Origin: Bacteroides congonensis
GTDB taxonomy: Bacteria; Bacteroidota; Bacteroidia; Bacteroidales; Bacteroidaceae
Assembly (NCBI RefSeq): GCF_900130125.1
Contig: NZ_FQXY01000008.1
Coordinates: forward strand, 62,001-126,000
DNA length: 64,000 bases
Direction of reading: 5' to 3'
The notes beneath the pieces were generated by a model that was not told the origin of the DNA, made no database searches, and saw only the letters and a program-made list of their open reading frames with translations. Both the position numbers and the translations under genes were made by a program. Shown here in pieces: positions 14,434 to 33,454 of the stretch (position 1 is its first letter; every line of letters starts with the position of its first letter).

Positions 14434-14435
14434 CT

Positions 14436-15449: not shown

Positions 15450-15470
15450 ACAATCAAAAACGATTCACAG

Positions 15471-16094: not shown

Positions 16095-16390
16095 GAAGAA
16101 GAAAATACCCGTGGAAACAGGCGGACATCCTGATACACCGATACTGCGGCAGACTGACGACAGGGCAGCGGTTGGCTGTCATCGCCGTTGCATTTGCCCT
16201 GTTTATGGCAGGCTGCCTGTATATGATCCTCTCTTCCCTTTTGGGTTTCGGAGAACCGGGCGGGGGACTGAAAATTGAGCATATCCGTCCTTTGGATATA
16301 AAGCCGGAGAAAGATACAACCATTCACTTTAAAGACTATTATGATTATGGACATTCAGAAAATCAGGACACTGTTAGGCTTGTCTGCTGA
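16091..16390 (+). CDS. traL: TraL (DUF3989), small membrane protein
   Basis: This 99-residue protein has a basic N-terminus (RRRKYPWKQADILIHRY), a single membrane segment (LAVIAVAFALFMAGCLYMIL) and a short periplasmic tail. It is typical of the TraL position. It overlaps traM by about 50 bp, an unusually long overlap for this operon but seen when the alternate ATG 16341 is used for traM. Confidence 0.82.
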   Translation: MRRRKYPWKQADILIHRYCGRLTTGQRLAVIAVAFALFMAGCLYMILSSLLGFGEPGGGLKIEHIRPLDIKPEKDTTIHFKDYYDYGHSENQDTVRLVC

Positions 16391-17639: not shown

Positions 17640-17698
17640 GACACAAAAGCAGTAAAAGAAAATCAATCATTAACCAACCAATCAAGATGCAATCGGAT

Positions 17699-18616: not shown

Positions 18617-19200
18617 GAATGACCGGAAAATTTGTGTTGTTGCTTGCAGCTATGCTTGCCCTGTTTCTGGGGCAGGCGCAGGCCCAACGCTGCCTGCCGG
18701 GTATGAAAGGTGTGCAGCTAATGGCGGATATGGTTGACGGTTTTTATTGCGGGAAGGAGCGTAATGATACGGGATTCGCTTTCGGACTTGCCGTTTCTAC
18801 CTATGTCAAGGGAGGAAATAAATGGGTATCGGGTATTGAAATCATGCGGCGGTATTATCCTTACCGTAATACACGTATCCCTTTGAAACAGTATACTGCG
18901 GAAGGCGGCTACTACTACAATTTCTTTTCCGACCCGGGGAAAAATGTATTTTTGAATATTGGTGCTTCAGGATTGATGGGGTATGAAACTGTAAACGGTG
19001 GAAAGGGACTGCTCTTTGACGGTGCCGTCCTGAAAAAACACGAATCGTTCATTTATGGCGGTGCAGTGACACTGGAAGCGGAAACTTATCTTTCAGACAA
19101 GGTCGTCCTGTTACTGCGTCTTCGTGAACGTGTTCTTTGGGGGAGTGCCGCAAAGCACTTCCATACCCAATATGGCTTGGGCATCAAATACATTTTATAA
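18613..19200 (+). CDS. traO: TraO, outer-membrane-type conjugation protein
   Basis: This 195-residue protein has a signal peptide (KFVLLLAAMLALFLGQAQAQ). The mature part is built of alternating beta strands (GFAFGLAVSTYVKGG, YYYNFFSDPGKNVFLNIG) and ends in an aromatic-rich strand, like a small outer-membrane barrel. TraO is specific to Bacteroidetes conjugation systems. It overlaps traN by 4 bp, and its stop TAA shares an A with the ATG of the next gene. Confidence 0.85.
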   Translation: MRMTGKFVLLLAAMLALFLGQAQAQRCLPGMKGVQLMADMVDGFYCGKERNDTGFAFGLAVSTYVKGGNKWVSGIEIMRRYYPYRNTRIPLKQYTAEGGYYYNFFSDPGKNVFLNIGASGLMGYETVNGGKGLLFDGAVLKKHESFIYGGAVTLEAETYLSDKVVLLLRLRERVLWGSAAKHFHTQYGLGIKYIL

Positions 19201-19685
19201 TGACTAAATCCATACGAAAAATGAAAAAGATACTTGATCAGATAATGATATTGTGCAGCATGGCAGCCGCCTTGTTTTGTTTTATCTCTTGTAGTGATGA
19301 CCTGGATATTCAGCAGGAATATCCGTTCACGGTAGAGGCGATGCCCGTAGCGGACAAGATAGTCAGTGGCCAGACGGTGGAAATCCGTCTGGAAATTACC
19401 GAGGAAGGTAATTTTTCCGGAACGCTTTATACTCTCCGCTATTTCCAGCCTGACGGGAATGGATTGTTGAAGCTGGAAGACGGTACGGTTCTGAAACCCA
19501 ATGACCGCTATTTATTGAGTGAGAAGAAGTTCCGGTTGTATTACACTTCAAGGAGTACGAATGAGGCACAAACGATTGATTTGTACTTTGAAAATAACTG
19601 GCAGGATGTCCGGCAGCTGAGTTTCAGTTTCAATAACAGGAATGACGGGGCGGAGAAAACGGAAGGAGGAGCCCGTGCCCAGTAA
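19200..19685 (+). CDS. traQ: TraQ-like DUF3872 lipoprotein
   Basis: This 161-residue protein has a signal sequence and lipobox (LCSMAAALFCFISC), giving a lipidated Cys. A single Ig-like beta domain follows (VEIRLEITEEGNFSGTLYTL, FRLYYTSRSTNEAQTIDLYF). It matches the TraQ slot of CTnDOT-like operons. The start at ATG 19200 overlaps the traO stop (TAATG); ATG 19221 is also possible. The primase-like TraP normally encoded nearby is not seen here. Confidence 0.78.
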   Translation: MTKSIRKMKKILDQIMILCSMAAALFCFISCSDDLDIQQEYPFTVEAMPVADKIVSGQTVEIRLEITEEGNFSGTLYTLRYFQPDGNGLLKLEDGTVLKPNDRYLLSEKKFRLYYTSRSTNEAQTIDLYFENNWQDVRQLSFSFNNRNDGAEKTEGGARAQ

Positions 19686-20268
19686 ATTGAGCAGGATGTT
19701 CTTGAACTGCAGTGACGAGAAATACACTCCGGGATACGGAGTGGCTCCCATCATCAAGTATCTGCCTGAAGGGAAGATCATATGGTGCCCTTTTGACACG
19801 TGCCACAGCGAGTTCGTGCTTCATCTGCAGGAAGCCGGATTTCAGGTAAAATACTCGCATATAGATACCGGACAGGATTTTTTTGCTTACGAGCCGGATT
19901 GTTGGGATATTATTGTATCTAATCCGCCTTTCAGCAGAAAAATTGAAGTTTTTGAACGCTGCCTGCAACTGGACAAGCCGTTCGCCCTGCTGATGTCCAA
20001 TTTTTGGCTGAACAGTGTCGGTCCGTGCCGGCTGTTTAAGGACAGGGAGCTTCAATTGCTGATGTTTGACAAACGCATCCAGTTTGACAAAGGGGGAGGT
20101 GTCCCATTTGGCAGCAGCTATTATTGTCACCGTCTTTTGCCTAAACAAATCGTGTTTGAGGAACTGGCGGTCTGTCGGAATGATTACAGCCGTATGCATC
20201 GGGATGTGGATAACTTGAATCGGAATATTGCGGAAGAAGACGCCGGACTTTCCTTCGGCGTTGTTTGA
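19642..20268 (+). CDS. Putative N6-adenine methyltransferase-like protein
   Basis: This 208-residue protein has the catalytic-type motif DIIVSNPPFSRKIEVFER near residue 95. Upstream, IIWCPFDTCHSEFVLHLQEAGF is where an AdoMet-binding motif would be, though the glycine-rich DxGxG pattern is not clear. DNA or RNA adenine methyltransferases carry (D/N)PP(F/Y/W). It overlaps traQ by 44 bp and is the last gene of the operon, so it would be co-expressed with the transfer machinery. A role in protecting transferred DNA from restriction is plausible but inferred. The N-terminal start is uncertain; ATG 19696 is possible. Confidence 0.65.
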   Translation: MTGRRKRKEEPVPSKLSRMFLNCSDEKYTPGYGVAPIIKYLPEGKIIWCPFDTCHSEFVLHLQEAGFQVKYSHIDTGQDFFAYEPDCWDIIVSNPPFSRKIEVFERCLQLDKPFALLMSNFWLNSVGPCRLFKDRELQLLMFDKRIQFDKGGGVPFGSSYYCHRLLPKQIVFEELAVCRNDYSRMHRDVDNLNRNIAEEDAGLSFGVV

Positions 20269-20422
20269 AAGCACAAACGGAAAAATGGATTATGGGAAAA
20301 ACTTTTTTATTGTTCTTTCGATTTCCGCCTTTTCCGCCCGTGCCGGAAATCCGCCTTCCATGATTGACAAGGCGGAAGAGGGAGTTTGAACTTTTCTATA
20401 TACCTTAGATTACATGTTACCG

Positions 20423-20462
20423 GAGCCGTGAACAGTATGCCATATTGCTTGCGGCTCTTTTA
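20423..20462 (+). terminator. Probable terminator of the traE operon
   Basis: GAGCCG (20423-20428) pairs with CGGCTC (20452-20457) around a structured loop and is followed by TTTTATTAT. It lies between the plus-strand tra operon and the convergent gene at 20463. A second inverted repeat, TTCCGCCTT/AAGGCGGAA, lies just upstream within 20329-20377. Confidence 0.55.
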
Positions 20463-20825
20463 TTATAGGGTTCTGCCCAGCAGTACTGACAGACGGTAGA
20501 TATATTTGTTGTATTTTTTGAGACACTCCATATCCAGTGTTCCGTTATGGTAGGGACTGGATTTGTCCGTGTAGAAGAATACATCCACTTTACTGCTGTT
20601 TCTTTGAATATCCACCCCTTCAACCGGTATTTCTTCCGGGTTGTCATATTCTTCCAGCGGTAATTCCTCAATTGAGTTCCATTTGTCCATTCCAAGCAGG
20701 TTCAGTTTCCGGTTGAACAGGACGAAACCTTTTCTGGAGTAATCAATTCTTATACCGTATGGACGGTCCAGATAGAAACTTTCAACGGCCTTTTGTGCAT
20801 ACAGGCTCGAATTATTATTTTCCAT
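20463..20825 (-). CDS. Hypothetical protein, 120 residues
   Basis: I do not recognise it. It is a small acidic soluble protein (MENNNSSLYAQKAVESFYLD... SVLLGRTL) without signal peptide or membrane segment. It is transcribed toward the tra operon and appears to have its own promoter: CAAAGATA on the plus strand at 20878-20885 reads TATCTTTG on the minus strand, a perfect -7 element giving a leader of about 45 nt. Codon use and promoter suggest it is a real gene. Confidence 0.7.
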   Translation of the reverse strand: MENNNSSLYAQKAVESFYLDRPYGIRIDYSRKGFVLFNRKLNLLGMDKWNSIEELPLEEYDNPEEIPVEGVDIQRNSSKVDVFFYTDKSSPYHNGTLDMECLKKYNKYIYRLSVLLGRTL

Positions 20826-21191
20826 TTTGAGTATTGATATAAGTTTTCTCTTTCAATAAATGTCTGTAAAAGGGAAGCAAAGATACAAAAAATAGTTTCT
20901 GTGTAAATTTATAGACGGATGAATTTGAATTTAATAAAGTAGGGGAACTGGAAGAACGGTTGACTGTTTATGGGGAGATGCAGAGAGAGTATAGGGGAAC
21001 TAGAATAAGTTGGTGAATACGACAATTCTATCTGCTCTTTTGGTTAAAACATCCGTTTCATCATATCAACTATTTTTATAGTCCGGCAATTTGTCCATTG
21101 TGAATGATTCTGTTTTACAATTGCTTGCCGGACAATGGAAGGTCCGGCAAGTTCTGCTGATTTTTCATTCTATGATTGTCGTTTTTCCATT
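20826..21191. other. Intergenic region with repeated GTCCGGCAA words
   Basis: No gene is visible. Near its right end are three copies of GTCCGGCAA in alternating orientation (about 21081, 21125 and 21141). Two of them form a perfect 10-bp inverted repeat CTTGCCGGAC/GTCCGGCAAG with an 8-nt loop. A further TCCATTG/CAATGGA pair is nested. It could end the minus-strand accessory operon, but no U tract follows. Confidence 0.5.
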
Positions 21192-22349
21192 TCAGTTGTT
21201 TTTCACCCGGTTCATCAGTTGCCCGGATATCTCATGCAGCTCCCTGCTGCGTTCCGGCTCCTGTTCCCGTGCAAAGGCGGTGATGCCTTGTGCCAGTTTC
21301 CAGAGTGTTGCCCCTCCTGTTATGCCGTCGTCGGGGTTGTTGTTCATCAGGAGCTTTTCGACTTCCCGTCCTTCGTTTTTCAGCAACGCGCCACGCTGTA
21401 CCAGGGATTTAAGTTCCTTGTCAAAGTCCACGTCTATTTCCGACGCTCCCTGAATTTCGATGGCTTTCTGCATGATCGTATCCTTGCTGTAAAGTCCTTT
21501 AGTCAAATCTTTGACAGCCGATACGGTAGTTTTCGTATCCAGTTCATAGGTTCTTTGCGAGAGCGCAAGCGTATCCGGCAAGCGTCCTCCCAGATGAATC
21601 TGCCGCATGACCGATTCACGTACCATGCCGTTCAGGCAAGCTCCGTTGAGCAGGAACGAGCGCATGTCCACCGAACCGTTTCCGAAATCGGATGTGCTGA
21701 ATCTTGCTCCCGCGAATATGATTACCGTCCCGTTTTTACGGGTGGGTATTTCAACCGGTGTAGGAAGAATCGTTTCGCACCATACTTTGGTGTCATTCAT
21801 ATAGGCGTCGGACACGACGGCTCCGTTGTTTGCCGCTTCCCTGATGAATGCGGTTAGTATGTCCACGGAGTTGAGTCGCCGGTACGAGTCTGAGAGTACA
21901 CCCCTGATTTCCGTTCCTACCGCACGGATGAGCACGCGTGTGCGCCCCGTCCATCCCGAATGTTCGTTAAGAATGGTTGCGCACAGCTGTTTCTGCCAGG
22001 CGTCTCCTGCGGAAAGCTCCCTGAGATATTTTGCCGGAATGCCCATTTTCTCGGAAATCTGGCTGATGGCATTTCCGTGCAGGTTGAATTTTCCTTCCGG
22101 CATGTTCATCTGTACCTGTTCCTCTGCCTGGAATGTAATGACCGGATGGCGGTCCTCATTACGCAGGTTCACTCCTATGGGTGCGATGAAGTCCTGCGCG
22201 ATTTTTCCCTCTTCAAGCAGGCGGGTGATTGTAGCCATGACACCCTGCTGTTTTCCTTCGATCATTTTTTGAACCTTGTTTATGACTACCTGGTTCAATC
22301 CCTGTTGCTTTTGTACCGGTGCAGCGGCCGGCATTACTGTAACTTCCAT
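21192..22349 (-). CDS. DUF932 domain protein
   Basis: The protein has about 385 residues from ATG 22349 (MEVTVMPAAAPVQKQ); the open frame reaches 22388. Recognisable DUF932 features include GNAISQISEKMGIPAKYLREL, TRVLIRAVGTEIRGVLSDSY and a C-terminal helical part. DUF932 proteins (phage/plasmid-like, YubP-type) are common on plasmids and ICEs, often in regions entering the recipient early. Their biochemical role is unknown. It is the last gene of accessory operon I. A hairpin at 22384-22402 lies just upstream. Confidence 0.82.
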   Translation of the reverse strand: MEVTVMPAAAPVQKQQGLNQVVINKVQKMIEGKQQGVMATITRLLEEGKIAQDFIAPIGVNLRNEDRHPVITFQAEEQVQMNMPEGKFNLHGNAISQISEKMGIPAKYLRELSAGDAWQKQLCATILNEHSGWTGRTRVLIRAVGTEIRGVLSDSYRRLNSVDILTAFIREAANNGAVVSDAYMNDTKVWCETILPTPVEIPTRKNGTVIIFAGARFSTSDFGNGSVDMRSFLLNGACLNGMVRESVMRQIHLGGRLPDTLALSQRTYELDTKTTVSAVKDLTKGLYSKDTIMQKAIEIQGASEIDVDFDKELKSLVQRGALLKNEGREVEKLLMNNNPDDGITGGATLWKLAQGITAFAREQEPERSRELHEISGQLMNRVKNN

Positions 22350-22383
22350 AATTGCTGTATTTAATGGGTTAATAAATAAATTT

Positions 22384-22402
22384 AGCATACCGGTGGTATG
22401 CT
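22384..22402. repeat. Perfect inverted repeat between the methylase and DUF932 genes
   Basis: AGCATACC-GGT-GGTATGCT is an 8-bp stem with a 3-nt loop, in an AT-rich spacer. On the minus strand it is followed by AAATTTATTTATT. It may act as a processing site or weak terminator inside operon I. Confidence 0.55.
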
Positions 22403-22421
22403 TATAAAATATAGTATATAA

Positions 22422-23240
22422 TCATTTTTCATGCTGATGATCGGGTTTGGTATCATATTTTATGTCGTTATTACATCTTGAAAACGTCTGTAAAGGCGGA
22501 GGGGAATCCGCCTTACGCTTCCTGCCACCCGCTGACATCGTTTTTCGTATGATATAAGGGGATGCTGGAAGATTCCTGCCTGCCCGGTATTCCTCCATGT
22601 TCATTCTTTTTATCGTGGGTATGCCTGTCCATGCAAGCATGGGATTGACCTTCCAACCGTCCACGAAGTTTCCGGGATTCAGGCTGTCATGGCAGATAAC
22701 TTCCCCTACGCATCCGTGTATGAGCATATTGCATACGGTCATCAGGCAGCAGGTCCGGTTGATATCCTCCCCTATGAGGTAGTTTCCCGGATTCCGTGCA
22801 TGATAGGCCAGCAGCAGCCTTCCGCTTCCGCAGGTCGGATCACCTATCCTCTGTCCGGTCTTTTTTTCTTCCGTTTGGGTGCACAGCACCATGAGGTTGC
22901 AGATATGTACCGGAGTGAAGAATTGCCCCTGTGACTGCTGGGTACTTTTGGAAACCAGTGCCATATATAAATCCCCGAAAGGGTCATACCAGCTTGTATC
23001 ATCCTTTATCCGGCTTGCCATGAGCCGTACCCATCCGGTGAGCATTTCCATAAATTTCATGTTCTGCAGCCGTTTGTACTTCCAGTTCTGCAGTGGGGGA
23101 GCACCGGGAGAAAACCCGTGGATGATGTAGGTCAGGAAATCGTTGAATACATTGACGGGATCGAGTCCGTTTGTGTAGGAGAAATCCGTTATCAGCTTCT
23201 CAAGCGGACGGACCGGGGGAGGGGTTTCGTATTTTGCCAT
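22422..23240 (-). CDS. N6-DNA methylase-like protein with atypical catalytic motif
   Basis: This 272-residue protein is related to the HsdM-type N6_Mtase family. The helical N-terminus is followed by the family signature STQQSQGQFFTPVHICNLMV, then the AdoMet motif I RIGDPTCGSGRLLLAYHA and an acidic motif II (LIGEDINRTC). The catalytic (N/D)PP(Y/F) is not present; at its place the sequence reads WKVNPMLAW. It may bind AdoMet or DNA without methylating, or use a variant site. The C-terminus is short and basic. No restriction subunit is nearby. It belongs to accessory operon I, 2 bp after the gene at 23243. Confidence 0.78.
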   Translation of the reverse strand: MAKYETPPPVRPLEKLITDFSYTNGLDPVNVFNDFLTYIIHGFSPGAPPLQNWKYKRLQNMKFMEMLTGWVRLMASRIKDDTSWYDPFGDLYMALVSKSTQQSQGQFFTPVHICNLMVLCTQTEEKKTGQRIGDPTCGSGRLLLAYHARNPGNYLIGEDINRTCCLMTVCNMLIHGCVGEVICHDSLNPGNFVDGWKVNPMLAWTGIPTIKRMNMEEYRAGRNLPASPYIIRKTMSAGGRKRKADSPPPLQTFSRCNNDIKYDTKPDHQHEK

Positions 23241-23242
23241 TG

Positions 23243-24046
23243 TTATTTCTTTTTATAGACGGTTATTGTACGGGTATCATCGCAGGTTATTATTTTCACG
23301 GGGGACTCTCCGAGAAAGGATATGTGTATTTCGGCTTTTGTTTCGTTCCATTCTTGTTCCGTGAGTATTTCCCATTTCATGTGGTATCCCCATAGAACGA
23401 GTGAGTTGCTGTATATCCCGTCGAAGAGTTTCCCGTGAAGGATTCCGGTCAGCCTGTCCAGTTCCTCGCGTGAGTATAGGGTGAATCCTTCGGTCATGTA
23501 GAAGAACTCGCCGTCATGTTCCGGGTCGGGCTGCCTGTTGATGTGGTATTTGCTCCAGTTTCTGGTAGTATATCTGCCATACAGGGGTTCGGGTTCCGTA
23601 TATTGCCACGCACGGACACAGGCCGTGAAGTATACCTCCCCGTTGGCGCATTTTCCGGCATGTCCCCATGTCCTGAACTGCTTTTCCCTGATACCTGCCG
23701 GTCTTAAGGCGGCTCTCTTCAGATAAGTCCATATCCCTTCATGGACGTTATAGCCGACACCGTCCCCGCTTTCATAACAGAACGGGATGATTCCGGAAAG
23801 GCAGATCTTGAAATGTCCGTCGCATATCTCTTCGATGTGTGCCGATTGAAACCAGTCACCGTTCCGGCAGGTATACTCGATAATGTCACCTGCTGCCGGT
23901 CCGATATTCTTTTCCCGTTCTTGCCGGATTATTGCAATGAGACGGTTTACCTTGTCCGTGTCACTTTGGTTTACCCGATATCTGCGGTAATGGAAACCGT
24001 TGAAGCATTGCAGGCTTTCCACTGTATAAAGGTCAGTAAATTCCAT
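23243..24046 (-). CDS. Hypothetical ICE accessory protein (DUF4121-like)
   Basis: The protein has 267 residues from ATG 24046 (MEFTDLYTVESLQCFNGF), or 277 from ATG 24076. It is soluble, aromatic-rich and has no signal peptide. I associate such proteins with the DUF4121 family found on Bacteroidetes mobile elements, but cannot confirm this here. Motifs visible include WFQSAHIEEICDGHFKICLS and a C-terminal beta pattern ending ITVYKKK. It is in accessory operon I, overlapping the preceding gene by about 14 bp. Confidence 0.68.
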   Translation of the reverse strand: MEFTDLYTVESLQCFNGFHYRRYRVNQSDTDKVNRLIAIIRQEREKNIGPAAGDIIEYTCRNGDWFQSAHIEEICDGHFKICLSGIIPFCYESGDGVGYNVHEGIWTYLKRAALRPAGIREKQFRTWGHAGKCANGEVYFTACVRAWQYTEPEPLYGRYTTRNWSKYHINRQPDPEHDGEFFYMTEGFTLYSREELDRLTGILHGKLFDGIYSNSLVLWGYHMKWEILTEQEWNETKAEIHISFLGESPVKIITCDDTRTITVYKKK

Positions 24047-24308
24047 AGTGTTTTCGATTTTTACGGTATACTTCAATTTGTCGGGCTACCATGTCACAGA
24101 ATTTCTGTCCGTTTTCACCCTCCCCTCTGAAATAGATGATCATTTCTCGGAGGTCCCGGTTGAAACAGTTCATCCATTTGTCGTAATAATGACTGCCCTG
24201 TGTCTTTCCGAAGGTCTCCTCGAAAAGGTGCAGGTTCAGCCCTTCCTCCCCGTGGTGGTTGTACTGCCATAGGAAGATGAGTAATAGACGGTTATAGCTG
24301 AGTTCCAT
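24033..24308 (-). CDS. Small hypothetical accessory protein, 91 residues
   Basis: Not recognised. From ATG 24308 the protein begins MELSYNRLLLIFLWQYNHHG. It is helical, with ETFGKTQGSHYYDKWMNCFN in the middle and a basic C-terminus (YRKNRKHYGIY). An upstream ATG at 24350 would lie deep in the preceding gene. It overlaps both neighbours by 14-17 bp, which supports translation as part of operon I. Confidence 0.65.
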   Translation of the reverse strand: MELSYNRLLLIFLWQYNHHGEEGLNLHLFEETFGKTQGSHYYDKWMNCFNRDLREMIIYFRGEGENGQKFCDMVARQIEVYRKNRKHYGIY

Positions 24309-25257
24309 AGAATATGTTTTTTGATATTCCTTCCGGGGTTGCTCTTGCACAAAGGAGCTCCTCCCTTATCCATATTTGGGTGTATTCTTCCAGATATCCC
24401 TTGTCTATGAGTTTTTGATAGGCTTCCCGGACATATTTGTAAGCGGGGGAGTCCCGGTCGGGCCCTTCCGGATATTTTTGAGTCGGTATGTTGATTTCTG
24501 AAGCCACCGTCATGAGATTTTCGGTAACAGTCCACGGTTTCCTTCTGAAAAGGTCGAATATCCGGTAGTATATGCTTGTTTCGTTTTGCTGCCGGTAAAA
24601 TTCCAGCTCCTCTTCCTGCGTGAAACTGAATATGAAATCAAGCAGGGTGCACTTAATCAGATGGAATCTCCTGCTTTCCCTGAGTAACCGGATGAGCGTT
24701 TCGGGCAGGTGTGTGGCCTCACACTGTCCGGTTATCCATCCGTAATGCGAATAAAGCCTTGTATTCCCTTTGGTTATCCGGCATCCTTTTCCTCTTTTCT
24801 CCATTTCTGCCGTATATCCGTCCGTGGTGAATATTTCCGCGATTTCCTCATAAAGTTTCCTCTTCTTTCTGTATTCGTTCTTTTTCCCGTACACATATCC
24901 CCAGTCAAGCTCGATCTCTATCCTGTAGATCAGATTTTTTTCATATTCCGGGTTTGTATATCCGAAAGCATGTGTTCTCCCGGTTATCGGTCCCAGTATG
25001 AATCCTTCCGGTGTATATAGTTGAAGTACATGCAGCAGTTCCGCCAGAAGGAAGTCCGGTTTCTTGCTCCTCCACCATTTTGCCTGCCGGTCTTCTTCCG
25101 CGTATGCCGGAAGAAGGGGTGAAAGTTGTACATATTCGGGGGTGTCCCGTATGATTTCCATTATCCGTAATATTGCCCCTGGTTTGTCTTCCAGTGTGAA
25201 AAGTGTCGTTTCTGTATCCGCATACAGTCTGTTCCGGGTTCTTTCATCTGTAATCAT
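24292..25257 (-). CDS. Hypothetical accessory protein, 321 residues, first gene of operon I
   Basis: Not recognised. This soluble protein has a charged middle (YGKKNEYRKKRKLYEEIAEI) and a C-terminal segment resembling a small winged helix (DSPAYKYVREAYQKLIDKGY, EEYTQIWIREELLCA). No catalytic motif is visible. It is the first gene after structured element 1, whose base lies 52 nt upstream of ATG 25257. No ordinary minus-strand TAnnTTTG promoter is seen in that gap. Confidence 0.7.
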   Translation of the reverse strand: MITDERTRNRLYADTETTLFTLEDKPGAILRIMEIIRDTPEYVQLSPLLPAYAEEDRQAKWWRSKKPDFLLAELLHVLQLYTPEGFILGPITGRTHAFGYTNPEYEKNLIYRIEIELDWGYVYGKKNEYRKKRKLYEEIAEIFTTDGYTAEMEKRGKGCRITKGNTRLYSHYGWITGQCEATHLPETLIRLLRESRRFHLIKCTLLDFIFSFTQEEELEFYRQQNETSIYYRIFDLFRRKPWTVTENLMTVASEINIPTQKYPEGPDRDSPAYKYVREAYQKLIDKGYLEEYTQIWIREELLCARATPEGISKNIFYGTQL

Positions 25258-25284
25258 AGCCGATCATTTTTTAGTTATACATGA

Positions 25285-25302
25285 GCCTGTCGTGAGACGG
25301 GC
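25285..25302 (+). promoter_or_regulatory. Small hairpin beside structured element 1
   Basis: GCCTGTC-GTGA-GACGGGC forms 7 bp on the plus strand, including one T-G pair that would be A-C on the other strand. The equivalent hairpin beside element 2 is GGCTCC-GT-GGAGCC (29256-29269). Sequence differs while pairing and position are kept. Confidence 0.6.
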
Positions 25303-25308
25303 ATTTTT

Positions 25309-25468
25309 ATTTCTTGTTGGATGCGTTGTCCGTTTGCCGGGGATTGCGGCAAGGCTTGACGGAAAAAAATACCGGAGCGTAGCGAGGATGATTTTTTTCC
25401 TGTCAACCAGCCCGCAGGGCTGCCTTGCGCATTCAGTCCGGCAAACGGCTATCTTTGCGGCAAGAAAT
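25309..25468 (+). promoter_or_regulatory. Structured element 1, candidate ssDNA promoter of accessory operon I
   Basis: The plus strand folds as follows. P0 is ATTTCTTG (25309)/CAAGAAAT (25461). A 13 x 12 nt internal loop follows. P1 is CCGTTTGCC (25330)/GGCAAACGG (25440), and P1b is GGATTG/CAGTCC. P2 is GCAAGGC (25349)/GCCTTGC (25422). At a three-way junction, P3 is TTGAC/GTCAA plus GGAAAAAAAT/ATTTTTTTCC, with apical loop 25371-25390, and P4 is AGCCC-GCA-GGGCT. The loop on the 3' arm holds TATCTTTG (25450-25457), a perfect Bacteroides -7 element, and TTG at 25425 lies 22 nt upstream. Read from the folded plus strand, such a promoter would point out of the hairpin base into the gene at 25257. 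It matches element 2 in structure. Confidence 0.7.
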
Positions 25469-25489
25469 GGAAATGTGGAATCCGTTTTG

Positions 25490-25993
25490 CTATTTCCGCA
25501 TTTCCCGTTGGTGTTTTTCGGCTTTCCTTTGCAGCCTTCTTTCTGCCTCCTGTACATTTTCTTTTTTTATTTTGAGCTTGGCGACAGCCTTTTGGAGCAT
25601 TTCGTCCGTCTGTTCGTCAAAAAAGAGGTTGTTCTGCTTTTGCCATGCTGTGTATTCCCTTATCCTCCGTTCCATCCTGGTGACCTGTGCCTTGGCTGCC
25701 GCCAGCGAGGAGAGACAGGAGCCGAATGAATAGTCTTCACCGCTGTGCCTGTCATACAGGCAGTAGGTATGTGTAACATTCCCTTTGGGATATTGGCAGG
25801 TCAGTCTTGCCATTCTCCACCGGACGACCCAGTCATATTTGTCCGCCACTTTTCGTGGCAGGTCATATCGGAAGAGCAGGACTTTACCGCCCTGCTCCGT
25901 AGTCCTGTAAAAGGAGATGATCACCCACAGCTCGATCTCCAGCTCTTTTTCCGCTTTTGCCATGTCTTTGGCATACTGCATCCATTCTTCCAT
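25490..25993 (-). CDS. Hypothetical coiled-coil accessory protein, 167 residues
   Basis: Not recognised. The N-terminal half has a beta-rich part (ELEIELWVIISFYRT, KVLLFRYDLPRKVADKYDWVV). The C-terminal 70 residues form a long charged coiled coil (AAKAQVTRMERRIREYTAW, KLKIKKENVQEAERRLQRKA). It is the last gene of accessory operon II, 12 bp after the gene at 26006. Structured element 1 follows its stop, so a rightward plus-strand transcript from that element would be antisense to it. Confidence 0.65.
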   Translation of the reverse strand: MEEWMQYAKDMAKAEKELEIELWVIISFYRTTEQGGKVLLFRYDLPRKVADKYDWVVRWRMARLTCQYPKGNVTHTYCLYDRHSGEDYSFGSCLSSLAAAKAQVTRMERRIREYTAWQKQNNLFFDEQTDEMLQKAVAKLKIKKENVQEAERRLQRKAEKHQREMRK

Positions 25994-26005
25994 GTTCCGG
26001 AAACT

Positions 26006-26299
26006 TTAAGTGTGTATCTGCCATCCTTTGAAGGGAGTCAGCTGTACGGCAAACGATTCATCCGGTGAGCCGTGATAGAGCAGCCCTCCGACAATCCCTC
26101 TGCTGCCGTCCGGGTACCTTTGGGTGAACCCGAATGAATAAGGCGCCCAGTCGTGGTAAAGCTCTATTTCACACGGGCGGTCCGGATTCTTTTCCCATGC
26201 TTCAAGACGTTCCATGCAGTTCTGCAGTGAAGTGTCCTTGATTGATTCCGCATACTGTACTACCTGGTCGTAGTAGTCCTGTTTGCACATGATTTTCAT
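26006..26299 (-). CDS. DUF4120-like small protein
   Basis: This 97-residue protein begins MKIMCKQDYYDQVVQYAESI and ends in VQLTPFKGWQIHT, with HDWAPYSFGFTQRYPDGSRG in the middle. I associate this pattern with DUF4120, a family of unknown function on Bacteroidetes conjugative elements; the assignment is from memory. It is the fourth gene of accessory operon II, 11 bp after its predecessor. Confidence 0.65.
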   Translation of the reverse strand: MKIMCKQDYYDQVVQYAESIKDTSLQNCMERLEAWEKNPDRPCEIELYHDWAPYSFGFTQRYPDGSRGIVGGLLYHGSPDESFAVQLTPFKGWQIHT

Positions 26300-26310
26300 G
26301 ATATTCCGTT

Positions 26311-27135
26311 TTAATTGGTTGATAATGTTTTTTCTTTCTCTCTGTTCCTGCCTGTATTCCTGACGGTTTTGTATTCAGTTTCCCAGCTGGTGGAGTCGCA
26401 CCAGTCCCTGCACATTCCGCATACTTCGGTTGCATAGGAATAACGTACCTGTGAGTCTACGAACAGTCTGTCCCTGACGAATGGAAACGTAATGTCCAGG
26501 GGCAGACTGATGTGGTAGCCGGAACCGTTGAAACTGTTGGCGACGGCTACGATGACATCCCCGTGGAAACGGATGGTTCTGAAATCTTTTCCGTTGTCGT
26601 TTGTGACAAGTTCATTGAACCCGGCATTGAAATAAATACGTAGTTCACCGCCGTATGTGGCGTTATCCACCAGTTCTTCAATTAGTGTGTCAAACTGTCC
26701 TTTCTTCAGTTTCAGGGCGCGCCTGACCTTGTAACAGGACATAGCTCTGAATTCTTTTCCGATGCGTTCCTCTATTTTCGTACCGGGAGAGTAGTACATG
26801 TTGACGGCGGCGGAATTTTTTATGAGTTCTTCCGCCGGGTCGGTATCATTCCTGCTCAAGATGAGGTCCGTAATCTCTTCACGATGTTCCTCGAATTCTT
26901 CCTGCCTTTTCTCTTCTGCCATCTTCTCTTTGATTTCCCCAAGTATTTTGAGCAGACTTTCCGCTTCCTGTTCAGCATAACATTCCATGACTGTTTCATA
27001 TAGCCTCCCCATGTTATTGTTCCGGATGCACTGCTCCTGCAGGTCTTCGCGTTCGTCCAGATTCTCCCGGTAGTCCACATGATACAGGCTGACCGTTTCG
27101 GGAACATATTTTTTCCATGACTCCGTATTATTCAT
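26311..27135 (-). CDS. Hypothetical accessory protein, 274 residues
   Basis: Not recognised. ATG 27135 (MNNTESWKKYVPETVSLY) overlaps the stop of the preceding gene by 8 bp and is preferred over the open frame reaching 27300. The N-terminal half is acidic and coiled (LLKILGEIKEKMAEEKRQEE). The C-terminal half is beta-rich, with RIYFNAGFNELVTNDNGKDF and Cys residues CGMCRDWC that could bind metal. It is the third gene of operon II. Confidence 0.66.
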   Translation of the reverse strand: MNNTESWKKYVPETVSLYHVDYRENLDEREDLQEQCIRNNNMGRLYETVMECYAEQEAESLLKILGEIKEKMAEEKRQEEFEEHREEITDLILSRNDTDPAEELIKNSAAVNMYYSPGTKIEERIGKEFRAMSCYKVRRALKLKKGQFDTLIEELVDNATYGGELRIYFNAGFNELVTNDNGKDFRTIRFHGDVIVAVANSFNGSGYHISLPLDITFPFVRDRLFVDSQVRYSYATEVCGMCRDWCDSTSWETEYKTVRNTGRNREKEKTLSTN

Positions 27136-28054
27136 AGCATTTGCATTTAGGGAGGACTGCTTTTGTTTCAGCCGGTGTTTTCTCTCTTTTGACGGCTCTG
27201 AGCCTGTGCATAATGTGCAGGAACAGTTCCCGGTCATAAATCCTGTAGAAGAAGTTTTCTCCGGTTTCCTTGACGGTTCCGGTGAATGAGACGGAATCAC
27301 GGCAGGGAGGAAACTGGAAGAGGCATCCGCTTGTTATTATGGTGTATCTCTTTTCCTCCACTTCATCCAGCAATGTTTCCATGTCGTCATGTCTGCCATA
27401 TCCGGAGAAATACAGAAAATGATGTTTCCTCAGGCTGATCAGTATGTTCGCCATGTCTTTTCTGGCCTTGCAGGTGTCCCCACCATTATTCCCTCCGGTT
27501 ACCATGTTACAGATGAAACGTTCCCTGTTTTCCTTGTCGGTGAATGAATAGGGAATGGTGATGATCTCCTGCTTGTCCTTGCTTGTAATTCTCTCCGCTT
27601 TTCCTTTGGTGACTTTTCCCTTGAATGTGATGTTGTGGTAATGCTCGTTCATTTGCCGCTCCAGTTCGGCCTGCGGTGTCATGACCGGACGCAGTCCCCG
27701 GAAAAAACGTTTTCCGATGGTGAAACAGAACATGTACAGGCTGCCGTGGTAGGGCTCGCCGAAAAAGAATGAATGGCGCTTCAGACGGACGGGAGGCAGT
27801 TCGTTCATACAGTTATAATAGTTCTCCTTTGTAATTTCACGGAAGGGGCGGCACAATGACTTGTCATGAATGCGTGACCTCTTGTGTATGGCGTTTCTTG
27901 TTACTGCAACTAGAAAAGGATTGTTTTCCTGTTTCTTGAGTTCCTCTAGTGTGCTGCCGTAGTAGTCACAGTGTATGCCGTCCGACATGGATGTGACGCA
28001 GCTTCCTCGGAAACAACGGGAGTCAATGACAAATTTCAGATGTTCTTTTTTCAT
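27128..28054 (-). CDS. Hypothetical accessory protein, 308 residues
   Basis: Not recognised. ATG 28054 (MKKEHLKFVIDSRCFRGSC) lies 2 bp after the stop of the gene at 28057. The open frame to 28237 runs inside that gene and is rejected. It is a basic protein with several Cys residues and motifs MVTGGNNGGDTCKARKD and HHFLYFSGYGRHDDMETLLD. There are no membrane segments. It is the second gene of operon II. Confidence 0.68.
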   Translation of the reverse strand: MKKEHLKFVIDSRCFRGSCVTSMSDGIHCDYYGSTLEELKKQENNPFLVAVTRNAIHKRSRIHDKSLCRPFREITKENYYNCMNELPPVRLKRHSFFFGEPYHGSLYMFCFTIGKRFFRGLRPVMTPQAELERQMNEHYHNITFKGKVTKGKAERITSKDKQEIITIPYSFTDKENRERFICNMVTGGNNGGDTCKARKDMANILISLRKHHFLYFSGYGRHDDMETLLDEVEEKRYTIITSGCLFQFPPCRDSVSFTGTVKETGENFFYRIYDRELFLHIMHRLRAVKREKTPAETKAVLPKCKCYE

Positions 28055-28056
28055 GG

Positions 28057-29226
28057 TCAGATATTTTGGAGGTTTAAGATTCTCTTTGCCGCAGACACCG
28101 CATTCGGATTGAGTTGCCGCTGCCATGCCCTGTTCCTGGGCGACCAGTGGAAACCGGATGATTTGAGTTCCCTGCGTTTGCTCTCTTCCGGTATTTTGTT
28201 GAAGAGGATTTGCAGACGACTTTCCTGATAGTTCCAAACGAGGATTCCACCTTCAAACGTTACTTCCCTATTTTCCAGCTCTTGGGTTTCCTTTAACTTG
28301 TCCCGCATGCGACTGGCTGTTTCAGCCAGCTGGAAGAACCGGTGGCGTGGTGTGATGACAGGCTTCTTTATGCCGGCATTATATTCGGAAATGAAGTCGA
28401 TTGCCTTCTGTACAATTTCCACGTCGCCATGTCCGGCAAATGTGCTGACCTTGTTGAAGATGCTGCTGACGAAGAGTGTCCGGTTGTATCCTCTGGCTTT
28501 TCCCGTATCAATCTCATGGATCGTGTTTGCGCTGCTTGCAATGTCACGTTTCAGCCTGCGCCATGTTTCCTCCCGTTTTTCTTCTTCAGGCCTGTCTTTT
28601 TCCGTGAGCAGTTGCATGGTTTTCAGAAATTTCTCACGCCATTTCAGGAATTCGTCGTATCTGTTCTGATAGGCATTTTGTGCCTTTTCATTCCTTTGGA
28701 AATTGAATCCTCCCCGTCCTGTCACCATCGGGTTTGCGCAGCGTGAGAGGCTGTGGAATAAAACGGATATTTTACTTTTGTAAGTATTGATATAATCCTG
28801 TTTTTTTGCCTCCGGTATTTTCTTCAGGTCTTCATGGAGCTGCTTTTCATATCCCATGATGTCCGTTTCAGCCATTGTTTCCGGATCATGGGAGTTCCAT
28901 CGGTAGGCATTGACGGCGATTTCTTCCAGTTCTTCCAGATAGCCGGGATACTTGAATTTTGTTACTTCCCAGTTTTTGAAGTCAGAAGCACGCAATTCCT
29001 TCTCTTCACCGTTTTCCGTGTAGGTATGAATATACATATACATACCTGTGCTTTTCTTGCGGAAATGGAAGGTAACCGCATCTTTGTCCGTTCCGATCCG
29101 CCGGATGGATTCTGCACGGTGCGCATTTGTTCTTGTGAGCGGAGTGATTGTCGGGTTACCACTGCTACTTTCTACAAGGTTCATTACTTGTTCTTCGTGA
29201 ACCTGCATTTCGGTCATTTCAGCCAT
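28057..29226 (-). CDS. LPD-like accessory protein, first gene of operon II
   Basis: The protein has 389 residues. The N-terminal region has TDKDAVTFHFRKKSTGMYMY. The middle is helical and charged. The C-terminal block EESKRRELKSSGFHWSPRNR followed by AWQRQL resembles the 'large polyvalent protein' C-terminal motif (KxxGFxWSPxxxAWQR) of phage and plasmid proteins injected or expressed early in a new host. That relation is from memory. Its start is about 54 nt downstream of structured element 2. As the lead gene of the ICE accessory module it is a candidate for a recipient-entry function. Confidence 0.7.
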   Translation of the reverse strand: MAEMTEMQVHEEQVMNLVESSSGNPTITPLTRTNAHRAESIRRIGTDKDAVTFHFRKKSTGMYMYIHTYTENGEEKELRASDFKNWEVTKFKYPGYLEELEEIAVNAYRWNSHDPETMAETDIMGYEKQLHEDLKKIPEAKKQDYINTYKSKISVLFHSLSRCANPMVTGRGGFNFQRNEKAQNAYQNRYDEFLKWREKFLKTMQLLTEKDRPEEEKREETWRRLKRDIASSANTIHEIDTGKARGYNRTLFVSSIFNKVSTFAGHGDVEIVQKAIDFISEYNAGIKKPVITPRHRFFQLAETASRMRDKLKETQELENREVTFEGGILVWNYQESRLQILFNKIPEESKRRELKSSGFHWSPRNRAWQRQLNPNAVSAAKRILNLQNI

Positions 29227-29280
29227 ACTTTAATCATTTAAAATTAGACATAACCGGCTCCGTGGAGCCAGTATTTCGAT

Positions 29281-29433
29281 TTCTTACTTGCCGGGTTGTT
29301 CGTGTCCGGGATTGTGCAAGGCTTGGCAGGAAAAAATACCGGAGCGTAGCGAGGATGATTTTTTGCTCGCCAACCAGCCCGCAGGGCTGCCTTGGGCAAT
29401 CCGCAGGACACGGACTATTTTTGCAGGTAAGAA
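29281..29433 (+). promoter_or_regulatory. Structured element 2, candidate ssDNA promoter of accessory operon II
   Basis: This has the same fold as element 1. P0 is TTCTTACTTGC (29281)/GCAGGTAAGAA (29423), 11 bp with one T-G. A 9 x 10 nt internal loop follows. P1 is CGTGTCC (29301)/GGACACG (29406), P1b is GGATTG/CAATCC, and P2 is CAAGGC/GCCTTG. P3 is TTGGC/GCCAA plus AAAAAAT/ATTTTTT, and P4 is AGCCC-GCA-GGGCT. The apical 20 nt (29338-29357) are identical to element 1. The internal loop holds TATTTTTG (29416-29423, TAnnTTTG) with TTG at 29392, 21 nt upstream. P1 differs completely from element 1 yet stays paired. The hairpin base is about 54 nt from ATG 29226. Confidence 0.7.
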
Positions 29434-29793
29434 GTTGAAATATAAAATCTGGTATGGGGTGACCTGAAAATAGCAACAGTATTACATTGGATATATCTTT
29501 ATTGAGTAGTTTTATTATGCGATTTTATGAGTAAAATAACATTCGAAGATTATCAGTGAAGCAATGAAGAGTGTTTTATATATTTTTTAGTTCTTCAAAT
29601 TGTTACATTAAAAATGAGTTTTTACAAATATAAACGAATTAAATGAGGTTGAATGGAGATAATTAGGAGTTGAAGTTATTTATTAGAAAGTTAAGAGGGC
29701 GTCTAATTAATGAAAATAACACAATTGTTGTTTGATAAAGTAGACTGATTGTGGGTAAACTATTATCTTTGTCAATATATAAAATATGTGATT
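29434..29793. other. AT-rich spacer, composition break at the ICE accessory end
   Basis: No gene is visible. Base composition drops sharply from the GC-richer ICE to strongly AT-rich DNA around 29460-29500, and stays low through 31690. TATCTTTG at 29764-29771 is a plausible -7 element for the gene at 29794. Confidence 0.6.
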
Positions 29794-31416
29794 ATGACAT
29801 CAGAGGAAGCAAAAAATATTATAGCAAAAGGAGAAGGAATTAATATTGAATTTAAGAGTTGTCAGAATGAGATAGGATCCTCCGTTTATGAAACGGTTTG
29901 TTCTTTTTTAAATCGTTCTGGCGGGTATATTTTTATCGGTGTAAATGATGATAAAGAGATAGTTGGAGTCAATAAAAACAACTTGGAGGCAATGAAGAAA
30001 AACTTCGTACATGTAGTTAATGATCCGACTGCGTTTTCTCCAAAGGCATACGTTACACCTGAAGATATAGAGATTGATGGTAAAGTAATAATTTTTGTAA
30101 GGGTTGAAGAAAGCCAGTACGTGCATCGTTTCAAACATAAGTATTATGATAGAAATAATGAGGCAGATACTAATGTTACTGACAATCCTTCTTTAGTAGC
30201 TTCTCTCTTTTCTCGTAAGGATACACTATCTTATGAAAATCGGTTACTTCCCATGTTAGATCTGACGGATCTGGATGATGCAACATTTGATTATTGTCGT
30301 AAACTTGTTATTGCACGAAATGACACTCATGCCTGGATAAAACTTTCTAATGAAGAATTGCTGAAAAGCTGTGGCTTAATGGCAAAGGATCCTGTTACTG
30401 GAAAGATTGGTGTTAAAGTGGCTGCTCTTCTATTGTTTGGAAAGGATGAAAGTATAGCTTCTTTTATTCCGGCATATCGGTTTGAAGCTATATATAGGAA
30501 TAAGACTTATGGGCGTTTTGTTTTAAATGAAGTGACAGATAGTACTAGATATGATGATCGAATAACAATACGGACCAATCTAATCAAGGCTTATGGCTTG
30601 TTGATGGATTTTGTTTATAAACATTTGCCGGAAAAATTCTATCTTCAGGATGGATCAACACAAAGAGGCGATCTTAGGGCGAATATATTCCGGGAGATTA
30701 TAGCAAACTTGTGTGTACATAGAGAATATGCAAGTAATGAAGTTGGTTTATTTGAAATATTTGCTGATAAAGTAAGGACGTGTAATGCCACAAAGTTCAC
30801 GTCTTCTTTGAGAACAGGTTCTATAAGTATAGATGAATTGGAAAACTATACTAAGAATCCATTATTGTTCAAGGTATTTCGTGAACTGGGTTGGGGTGAA
30901 GAATTAGGTTCGGGAAGCCGTAATATTAAAAAGTTTGCTCCTCTTTACTATAATAATAGCGTGATTGAAATACTGAATAATGAGCGTTTTGTTTTTAGTA
31001 TGACTTATCGAGATGTTGTTGGTGATGTACAAGCCAGTGATGTGAATAGGTGTGAAAATGCACCTGCTATGAGTGTGAAAAGTTGTGAAGTAGGTAGTGC
31101 TGTAGATCATAATAATGTGAATGTAGATAAACTAACTTCTATTTCTATAGGTACTGCACTTGTTTCCGAATTTGTTTCTGGGGTTAGTGATAAAATAGCT
31201 CTTAGAATGGCTGAAGAAATTGCTGCTATTTATGTTGTAGGACAACTTACAAAGAAAGAACTAAAAGAACAATTAGAATTAACCGAAGAGCAAATAAAGA
31301 TTGATCTAAGAGAATTGTCTAGAGCTAAACTGTTGGAACAGAAAGGTAAAGATAAGAAATATATGCTGTCTGAAATGGCACAGATAAAAATATCATCCTT
31401 TTGGACAAAAATGTAA
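29794..31416 (+). CDS. AlbA_2/Schlafen-type ATP-binding regulator
   Basis: The protein has 540 residues from ATG 29794 (MTSEEAKNIIAKGEGINIEF). The N-terminal AlbA_2 domain has EGINIEFKSCQNEI and FLNRSGGYIFIGVNDDKEIVG. A HATPase_c_4-like C-terminal region follows (RANIFREIIANLCVHREYAS, ELGWGEELGSGSRNIKKFAP), then a winged-helix-like tail (QLTKKELKEQLELTEEQIKI). Such proteins are often called transcriptional regulators or helicase-like and are frequent on islands. The gene is far more AT-rich than the ICE, suggesting a different origin. Confidence 0.85.
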   Translation: MTSEEAKNIIAKGEGINIEFKSCQNEIGSSVYETVCSFLNRSGGYIFIGVNDDKEIVGVNKNNLEAMKKNFVHVVNDPTAFSPKAYVTPEDIEIDGKVIIFVRVEESQYVHRFKHKYYDRNNEADTNVTDNPSLVASLFSRKDTLSYENRLLPMLDLTDLDDATFDYCRKLVIARNDTHAWIKLSNEELLKSCGLMAKDPVTGKIGVKVAALLLFGKDESIASFIPAYRFEAIYRNKTYGRFVLNEVTDSTRYDDRITIRTNLIKAYGLLMDFVYKHLPEKFYLQDGSTQRGDLRANIFREIIANLCVHREYASNEVGLFEIFADKVRTCNATKFTSSLRTGSISIDELENYTKNPLLFKVFRELGWGEELGSGSRNIKKFAPLYYNNSVIEILNNERFVFSMTYRDVVGDVQASDVNRCENAPAMSVKSCEVGSAVDHNNVNVDKLTSISIGTALVSEFVSGVSDKIALRMAEEIAAIYVVGQLTKKELKEQLELTEEQIKIDLRELSRAKLLEQKGKDKKYMLSEMAQIKISSFWTKM

Positions 31417-31496
31417 TTATAACCAATTCATTCCTCTATCCTGCTTGTGCGGATCAGGACAGTTGTCAGAAAGTGTGCGACATAATGAACCGGGTG

Positions 31497-31690
31497 CTAA
31501 TTCACTAAAGATGAATTCGAGAGTTTGAGGTGCAAAATTTGCACCTCAAACAAAAAGTGGTACAAGATATATGCCTTATGCCTTTACGGAGTCTGGAGAA
31601 GCAATGCTTTCATCGGTTCTGAACAGTGAGGTTGCAATTAATATCAATATAATGCATGTATTTATATTGGTTCGTCGGATGCTTACGTTT
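31497..31690 (+). pseudogene. Remnant of an ORF6N-domain protein gene
   Basis: Translated fragments resemble ORF6N/KilA-type phage antirepressor proteins. One frame gives [19 protein letters not shown] after a stop. A shifted frame then gives [20 protein letters not shown] followed by [16 protein letters not shown], close to the usual ORF6N text (PYAFTEQGVAML...). A frameshift lies near 31565, and the 5' half and C-terminus are missing. The 3' end runs into the integrase stop. It is probably debris from an older insertion. The palindrome GAGGTGCAAAATTTGCACCTC at 31527-31547 lies in this remnant. Confidence 0.7.
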
Positions 31691-32924
31691 ATTGTGTTAA
31701 TCGTTTCTTGACATTGAGCATGGATTTTTTTAGACTGGCATTCATGACTCGGGCATAATGTTGGGTCATTCGTGTGGAAGCATGTCCAAGCATAACTGAT
31801 ACATCTTGTAGGGGTACATTATTAGCGAGCGTAATGGTAGTCCCGAATGTATGTCGACCAGCGTGAGTGGTGATATTTTTCTTAATTCCGCAGAAATCTG
31901 CTATTTCTTTGAGATAGCTGTTCATTTTTTGGTTGCAGGGAACTGGGAGACAACATCCTTTTTTGATGCAAACAGGATTATTTTCATACTTCTTTAGTAT
32001 GGCAAGCGGAACGGGAAGTAGAGGTATGTTACAGATGGAAGATGCTTTACGCCGATGCATCAGTTTGATTCTTCCTTTTCTGATCCACCAGTCTCCATTA
32101 TTATCTTGCATCAGATCTTCTTTTTTGAGCGTGGACACATCGGCAAATGCCAGACCAGTGAAGCAGGCGAAAATGAAAATATCCCGTACCAGTGCTAGTC
32201 GGGGTATAGTGAATTCCTTATTCATAACGGTCTGTAATTCGTCATATGTGAGGAATACAGGAGCTGTTTCATCCTGTTCCATTTTGTATCCATAAAACGC
32301 ATCTTTCTTCATCCAACCTTTTGCCAGTGCCATATTTGTGATTTTCTTGAAACATTTCATATATCGTACAATAGTATTGCGGCACAAACCGACTTCTGTT
32401 TTTAAATGCATGTCAAAGGCTTTTATGAATTCCGGAGTGAGTTCATGGAAAGTAATATCTTCTTTGTCATAAAATGTAGGAATGGAATTTTCGAGTTTTT
32501 TCAGTACATTTTTGTAACGGTTGATGGTTACTGGTGCATAGTCAATATTCACAACTTTCTCCATCTCCTTGATTTCTAGTCGTATTGTTCCAAGCAGGGT
32601 ACGGATTTCCGTATCCTTGCCGAATACACGTTTTAATATTAAGGAGGGAGTGGATATTGCCTGCTCCAGTATAAGTTCTTTATACTTTTCCAATGCTCGC
32701 GTGGCTAATTCAGATAAATAACTGTTGAGTTCATTGGAAGCCCGGTCTTTTCCTTTACTACATCCTTTGGCTGCGTTCCACAGTTTGAGAGGAACGCTTC
32801 TTTGGATTCGTGTTTCTTCGTATTGACCGTTAATTGTGATCCTCATTAGAATAGGTGCTTCACCATTTTTTAATAATTTCGTTTTGAGAACGAAAAACAG
32901 AATCTTCATTGTTCCTTGTTTCAT
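31689..32924 (-). CDS. Tyrosine-type integrase
   Basis: This 411-residue recombinase has an N-terminal arm-binding-like domain ([19 protein letters not shown]), a SAM-like core-binding domain and a C-terminal catalytic domain. It shows [17 protein letters not shown] near residue 352, [16 protein letters not shown] with the nucleophile Tyr near 392, and [18 protein letters not shown]. In that last segment the usual first catalytic Arg is absent, as in other Bacteroides integrases of the IntDOT type. It is adjacent to tRNA-Phe and should integrate the island or ICE there. ATG 32909 ([11 protein letters not shown]) is an alternative start. Confidence 0.92.
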
Positions 32925-33008
32925 AACCTTTTTTCTTTAAGTTGGTAAATACAATTAGTTATTCTGTCAACTTGAAAGCTGAGTTGGAAGTCGGTAAAAA
33001 AGTTAAAA

Positions 33009-33358: not shown

Positions 33359-33382
33359 CTGAGAAATTACCGAATCGATAGT

Positions 33383-33454
33383 GGTGCCACCAGGAATCGA
33401 ACCGGGGACACAAGGATTTTCAGTCCTTTGCTCTACCAACTGAGCTATGGCACC
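33383..33454 (-). tRNA. tRNA-Phe (GAA)
   Basis: This 72-nt cloverleaf on the minus strand has acceptor stem GGTGCCA/TGGCACC, D stem GCTC/GAGC, anticodon stem AAGGA/TCCTT with loop CTGAAAA (anticodon GAA), and T arm CCCGG-TTCGATT-CCTGG. CCA is not encoded. It serves as the likely integration landmark of the neighbouring integrase. Confidence 0.96.

Follow-up and report, generated by a model that had tools for sequence, protein, structure and literature searches.

The window analysed here, a stretch of 64,000 nucleotides from Bacteroides congonensis, carries two hairpin-forming elements that very likely are Frpo-like single-stranded DNA promoters for the Bacteroides sigma factor, their activity being inferred without transcript data. 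In the mechanism that we propose, the + strand of an ICE would be sent to the recipient during conjugation, and on arrival as single-stranded DNA each element would fold up so that a Bacteroides promoter is reconstituted in its hairpin. A conserved stem at a three-way junction would hold the TTG of the -33 region in double-stranded form, and an internal loop would leave the -7 box TAnnTTTG unpaired, in the manner of a melted promoter, below an A/T-rich stem. RNA polymerase carrying the Bacteroides primary sigma would bind, initiate inside the base stem and leave at the hairpin base, using the + strand as template, into a minus-strand operon that begins about 56-60 nt further on. Synthesis of the complementary strand would then remove the hairpin, and the operon would fall silent. 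Use by the polymerase, timing and silencing are inferred from the analogous Frpo1 and Frpo2 of F, which have been tested in vivo and without which downstream genes are not expressed early in recipients; thanks to single-stranded promoters, F can express its leading genes before the DNA is double-stranded (PMC9849209).

The structure of element 1 is resolved in Table 1. Direct reading of the + strand gives TTG (25425-25427), then 22 nt, then TATCTTTG (25450-25457), and DNA folding places both boxes in the 3' arm of the hairpin, as the preliminary description had claimed for a TTG followed after 22 nt by a perfect -7 box. The + strand of 25309-25468 folds at -43 kcal/mol (z -5.86), and none of 200 shuffles has been as good; the minus strand of the same stretch reaches a z of -5.96, near the + strand value, and therefore the strand cannot be chosen from the energy alone. 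The partition function of 25300-25478 gives pairing probabilities of 0.03-0.23 for T25450, T25452, C25453, T25454 and T25455, 0.32 for G25457 and about 0.5 for A25451 and T25456, so that the earlier claim of an unpaired -7 box in an internal loop has mostly held. Two further claims have been amended: the hairpin, first delimited as 25309-25468, has a longer base stem (25301-25319 with 25458-25476), and the leader to the gene starting at 25257, first given as ~52 nt, is predicted to measure about 56-60 nt because a -7 box centred at -7 puts the start opposite ~25313-25317. The predicted leader contains a small inverted repeat, GCCTGTC-GTGA-GACGGGC (25285-25302, + strand), which is not significant as an RNA hairpin, 20 of 200 shuffles folding equally well.

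Table 1. Coordinates of the two elements, their parts and the relevant features of the host ICE (window numbering unless marked C10).
Feature	Position	Strand	Basis or remark
Element 1, whole single-strand hairpin including base stem	25301-25476	+	DNA fold, pair probabilities, family alignment
Base stem, 5' arm	25301-25319, partner 25458-25476	+	pair probabilities
Predicted transcription start	opposite 25460-25464 (template 25313-25317)		inferred from a -7 box centred at -7 (PMC7366714)
Bacteroides -7 box TATCTTTG	25450-25457	+	mostly unpaired, internal loop between two stems; consensus from PMC7366714
TTG, -33-like box	25425-25427	+	paired inside conserved CAAGG/CCTTG stem
Upper stem, 5' arm	25330-25341, partner 25437-25448	+	between -33 and -7 boxes; arms covary between copies
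CAAGG, junction stem, 5' arm	25350-25354	+	partner CCTTG 25423-25427
A/T-rich stem, UP-element-like	25355-25408	+	covaries
Terminal loop ATACCGGAGCGTAGCGAGGATGAT, nearly invariant	25369-25392	+	conserved columns, 29 copies
Side hairpin AGCCC-GCA-GGGCT at three-way junction	25409-25421	+	fold; variable in relatives
Element 2, same anatomy as element 1	29272-29442	+	DNA fold, pair table
Element 2 boxes, TTG and TATTTTTG	29392-29394 and 29416-29423	+	TATTTTTG in loop; base stem 20 bp
Operon I first gene, 321 aa	24292-25257	-	predicted to be read from element 1 hairpin
Operon II first gene, 389 aa	28057-29226	-	downstream of element 2
Relaxase gene (PF03432) of the ICE	4365-5621	-	
oriT-like inverted repeat CTATGTTC-GTTT-GAACATAG	6164-6183	+	perfect 8-bp arms
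AATCCTCC	6184-6191	+	directly 3' of oriT-like repeat; taken to set transferred strand
Tyrosine integrase gene near ICE right end	31689-32924	-	
Right att repeat, 23 bp, tRNA-Phe 3' end	33380-33402	.	left copy C10:13995-14017

The stems of element 2 differ from those of element 1 in sequence, with changes that are compensated. Its stretch 29272-29440 folds as DNA at a z of -7.26, and its minimum-energy structure has TATTTTT within the internal loop, the pairing probability reaching up to 0.53 at A29417. A blind window scan, which sought promoters with an upstream pairing partner for the spacer as well as for the downstream arm, has scored elements 1 and 2 at 24.2 and 23.2, the next best site in 64 kb at 14.4, and the maximum in five mononucleotide shuffles at 14.9. 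A looser scan without the -33 requirement has again put the two elements first (next 17.3), and they are the sole matches of TTG-N18..24-TAnnTTTG on either strand of 20000-33000. No hairpins above the shuffle background have been detected around other TraG loci of the same genome (220 kb, both strands), where four hits scored 16.1-16.7; the shuffled control, in twice as much sequence, gave three hits of at least 16 with a maximum of 17.2. Two extra hits of the first scan (in L071 and L080) look to be of a different kind, one being a palindrome beside a frame that reads right and the other a short-repeat match, and have been set aside. The leader of element 2 holds its own inverted repeat on the + strand, GGCTCC-GT-GGAGCC (29256-29269), and similar repeats between element and gene are seen in several relatives.

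The window sits in an ICE of ~81 kb located in a tRNA-Phe gene, a 23-bp repeat of whose 3' end occurs at C10:13995-14017 and C10:95380-95402 (the window starts at C10:62001). Leftward genes at 2281-6157 encode the relaxase, a MobC-like protein and the coupling protein, a rightward run of frames at 10156-20268 includes TraG and TraM, and the frames taken as genes in 20463-29226 read left; the first gene of operon I (24292-25257) matches nothing in Pfam or NCBIfam. Three copies of the exact core pattern are present in the 6.37-Mb genome, all on the + strand and all within the ICE, at ~19, 23 and 34 kb to the right of the putative nick and behind the transfer genes. The picture given in the preliminary description is thereby corrected on location, element 1 lying ~19 kb from this putative nick and beyond the transfer genes. 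Two further features of the region may be recorded: a group II intron (window 346-2194, Rfam matches to both ends, maturase ORF 831-2117) adjoins the coupling-protein gene, and a YhcG/DUF1016 PDDEXK nuclease gene (window 8854-9933) lies between the putative oriT and the TraG-TraM run.

Element 1 belongs to a family. BLAST matches occur at 47 places in 16 of 99 genomes of a genus sample (own genome included); an order sample has given 2/198 genomes and a phylum sample 1/198, the own genome being counted in each. At least 118 stretches of species genomes match the core pattern, mostly from Bacteroidales. Of the 80 matches with titles, 75 bear names placed in Bacteroidales or Bacteroidia. Three of the other five come from bins labelled Clostridium (two loci of a single bin) or Clostridiales (one); the fourth and fifth, from Mesorhizobium and Simkaniaceae, have the core without the rest of the element. 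The core pattern is also present in 18 stretches of viral contigs. Matches to the family occur in six records of a plasmid collection, all from Phocaeicola or Parabacteroides, and in a single record of a phage collection, an unannotated 16-kb entry from human faeces. Same-strand pairs of cores spaced by ~560-600 nt have been observed at L025, L091, L109, L110, L119, L143 and L147.

The promoter, defined for this set as CTT[GT], 19-24 nt, then NAnnTTT[GAT], is found with complete flanks in 122 of 141 distinct core matches. The -7 octamers among the distinct core matches are mainly TACCTTTG (45), TATCTTTG (15) and GACCTTTG (13), and the raw spacing of the boxes is 22-23 in 82/122 copies, mostly 22. 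Of the 137 copies whose downstream flank reaches 150 nt or more, 123 have the relaxed -7 motif NAnnTTT[GAT], compared with 1.6% of shuffled tails. Four further matches lack flanks and 15 lack the promoter; among the latter, six look unrelated to the family (L100, L150, L171, L206, L209, L212), one looks decayed (L129), one is cut off (L182), and seven are family-like variants without TTTG at the -7 place (L092, L113, L120, L151, L160, L174, L197). In these variants the -7 region reads GAACTTAG or GAACTTCG (L092, L120, L160), or TATCTTCC or TATCTTTC (L113, L151, L174, L197), which could reflect another sigma specificity or decay. An alignment of 29 copies out of 37 (39 rows originally, two double detections dropped) shows little or no change in CAAGG/CCTTG, in the A and TTT of the -7 box and in a large part of the loop, whereas both outer stems vary. 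The aligned copies had been picked with a -7 regex, yet none of the 39 starting copies failed to match it. The relatives support, at the sequence level, the single-stranded promoter architecture postulated before: in them the -7 box persists together with its flanking stems, even though the sequence of the stems changes.

Covariation of the arms is shown by an arm-swap test over 60 representatives, which are sequence clusters and not independent lineages: own arms score a mean of 88.0 and swapped arms 53.9, and the own partner is the best one in 43 of the 60 clusters. RNAalifold finds 10 of 24 inner-stem pairs to change on both sides; on the same alignment it has missed the outer stems, perhaps because their lengths vary. 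The strand that folds can be read from the mismatches between Watson-Crick neighbours, counted outside the -7 box under a scoring that makes no difference between G·T and A·C. G·T amounts to 96 against 14 A·C and T·T to 28 against 4 A·A, the other counts being 38 A·G against 12 C·T, 9 G·G and 5 C·C; per representative, G·T exceeds A·C in 43/60 and the reverse holds in 4/60. According to this G·T excess, the + strand, which has the -7 box within the 3' arm of the hairpin, is the one that folds, in agreement with the earlier claim that T-G pairs are tolerated on it. We read the asymmetry as selection on folding of the -7-bearing strand, and this reading includes no model of mutational strand bias. 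The pairing set has not been used for the conservation of the -7 box because the regex with which it was picked required NAnnTTT[GAT]. A net bulge is present in the 3' arm of 45/60 representatives, and once this bulge is discounted, the helical spacing of the boxes has a median of 19 (18-21 in 50/60), close to the 20 reckoned from boxes centred at -33 and -7 (PMC7366714). The 22-nt spacing noted before thus holds as a raw count, and the helical spacing is nearer 19.

Placement before reading frames is likewise directly observed. For the 55 copies with 700 nt of flank on the exit side, a complete frame of at least 80 aa with its ATG within 200 nt is present in 40, and in 33 of these the ATG lies 27-69 nt from the predicted start. 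Frames of at least 90 aa within 150 nt occur on the exit side in 31/55 copies versus 12/46 on the other side; a loose test (60 aa, 400 nt) hardly discriminates, with 55/55 versus 39/46. Other standard promoters are scarce. Within 1 kb around each of 49 copies, TTG-N18..23-TAnnTTTG faces the gene only once, and on the element strand it occurs 34 times at the hairpin and four times elsewhere. No standard promoter (TTG-N18..24-TAnnTTTG) faces operon I in 20000-33000, other sigma factors being outside this search, and the preliminary claim that operon I lacks an ordinary duplex promoter has held for this standard kind. Scanning 71 of the 116 downstream frames has given 20 Pfam families, the commonest being PRTRC_E with seven members, and most of the proteins have no family; among the families are PRTRC system proteins, N6 methylase-like proteins, DUF4121, DUF932 and DUF4313. 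Among the 25 of 48 families listed by PADLOC, methyltransferase models (2 members) and E1-E2 models (1 member) predominate.

The orientation of the elements is uniform, as 38 of 38 copies on 14 contigs share the strand of TraG and run counter to the relaxase gene. Nine of the 47 BLAST places, without a nearby relaxase and TraG, were left out of this count, and one copy 134 kb from its relaxase (G021) was included. With regard to the relaxase gene, 23 of the 38 copies are on the TraG side, five of the 38 sitting 4.8-5.9 kb from the gene on that side, and 15 are on the other side. Three listed copies of the P. vulgatus ATCC 8482 chromosome, which have not been placed relative to relaxases, are on both strands. 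In MOBP origins a repeat stands immediately 5' of ATCCTG, and the relaxase becomes joined to the resulting 5' end (PMC3772185). A comparable arrangement, the oriT-like repeat followed by AATCCTCC, lies on the element strand just upstream of the MobC-like gene, its nick-like motif ATCCTC being one base off the MOBP motif. The repeat with AATCCT on the element strand has been found at 7 of 17 relaxase loci scanned, the window included, the arms at the six other loci being the same in two and different but still complementary in four; a scan for perfect arms has not found it at the other 10 of the 17. That the + strand is the transferred one remains inferred from this indirect evidence, the relaxase and TraG orientation and the oriT-like repeat, without nicking data. 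Transfer of the minus strand had been named beforehand as an outcome that would refute the promoter reading; the orientation (38/38) and the repeat (7/17) point, indirectly, to the + strand.

Among the rival explanations, the one that survives best, and which we still regard as unlikely, is a single-strand site starting complementary-strand DNA synthesis (ssi or primer-RNA type), with gene expression being secondary. It would fit that 38/38 copies share one strand relative to the relaxase and that copies are found far from oriT too; the placement before reading frames and the conserved sigma-type -7 box fit a promoter instead. The two roles are compatible with each other. There is little to recommend a rightward structured transcript (+ sense) that would contain the element and in which the hairpin would act as RNA. 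G·U pairing within this transcript would likewise account for the G·T excess, but upstream on that strand there is only one further promoter pattern around 49 copies, at about -550, the conserved TAnnTTTG in the loop has no evident RNA reason, and the reading frames start on the other side at short distance. We have rejected it since there is hardly any promoter for it. Even harder to sustain is the idea that the minus-strand mRNA of operon I carries an attenuator or riboswitch in its leader. In its favour, the element lies upstream of the gene and the minus strand also folds well; against it stand the asymmetry of A·C (14) versus G·T (96), on which it has been rejected, the near absence of gene-facing standard promoters (one around 49 copies, none in window 20000-33000) and the lack of a gathering-score Rfam match at the element. 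A repeat element of REP or MITE type, or an ordinary rightward duplex promoter with an incidental hairpin, is also very improbable. Several copies exist per ICE, the boxes also make a rightward duplex promoter, and a rightward ORF at 29749 lies right of element 2. On the other hand, the arms covary across 60 clusters, all three copies of the 6.37-Mb genome lie within the ICE, the gene right of element 1 (25490-25993) reads leftward, and the raw spacing is 22-23 in 82/122; the repeat and the incidental hairpin have been rejected by the arm-swap test. A known Rfam family has been rejected as well, the Rfam search having found nothing but one tRNA and two parts of a group II intron.

Several points still speak against the single-stranded promoter reading. 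There are no transcript, polymerase, nicking or expression data, and the -33 match consists of the TTG in CCTTG, not TTTG. Moreover, 15/38 copies do not lie on the TraG side of the relaxase gene, the elements lie far from the putative nick, and a rightward duplex promoter at element 2 could serve the ORF 29749-31416, which begins ~325 nt from its -7 box.

Compared with Frpo/ssi of F and ColIb-P9, the elements share a transferred-strand hairpin that rebuilds two promoter boxes (the transferred strand being inferred for Bacteroides), a position upstream of genes templated by the transferred strand, and the occurrence of more than one copy per mobile element. Two characteristics of Frpo are present here, in that the single strand folds into a stable hairpin with both promoter boxes and the downstream genes use the hairpin strand as template. 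Unlike Frpo/ssi with their -35/-10 boxes, the Bacteroides elements use the sigma boxes -33/-7, have a three-way junction and a nearly invariant loop, and are mostly found in ICEs, partly far from oriT. No sequence similarity to Frpo has been detected, the plasmid matches being only Phocaeicola and Parabacteroides (the presence of F in that collection is unchecked), and hence the elements are said to work like Frpo and not to be Frpo. They resemble the duplex promoters of sigma-ABfr (PMC7366714) in their -7 TAnnTTTG and -33 TTTG-like boxes, and differ from these in that their boxes are part of a hairpin arm and would face the opposite direction in duplex DNA. Within the window, TATCTTTG and TATTTTTG both meet the -7 consensus TAnnTTTG of sigma-ABfr, and at -33 CTTG stands in place of TTTG, with a raw spacing of mostly 22 and a helical median of 19. 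The leading-region Frpo-like candidates of Samuel et al. 2024 (PMC11541004) are a further parallel, anti-defence and establishment genes being led there by single-strand promoters. That study used known Frpo/ssi sequences, and for new candidates the -35/-10 and UP consensus; the string 'Bacteroid' occurs 0 times in its main text. No report for Bacteroides was found in the open-access PMC literature searched, subscription papers and preprints being outside the search. Single-stranded promoters as such are already known; what would be new is a Bacteroides-sigma family without detected similarity to Frpo, the activity of which is inferred.

A bolder reading, which as a joint claim we consider likely, is that the ICEs of gut Bacteroidales own a single-stranded promoter family with a pre-opened -7 box, that methylase-like, PRTRC and other accessory operons would be expressed from it only while the DNA is single-stranded in a new cell, and that a dedicated factor would read the loop. 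If the promoter function is true, the first genes of the mobile element would switch on before the second strand is made, and a strategy like that of F would operate in gut mobile elements of a different phylum with different promoter boxes. A function and a timing would be suggested for many uncharacterised ICE operons, and the elements would mark the transferred strand where oriT is unmapped. The combined signature of sequence and structure would then serve to find establishment genes, and possibly anti-defence genes, in Bacteroidales.
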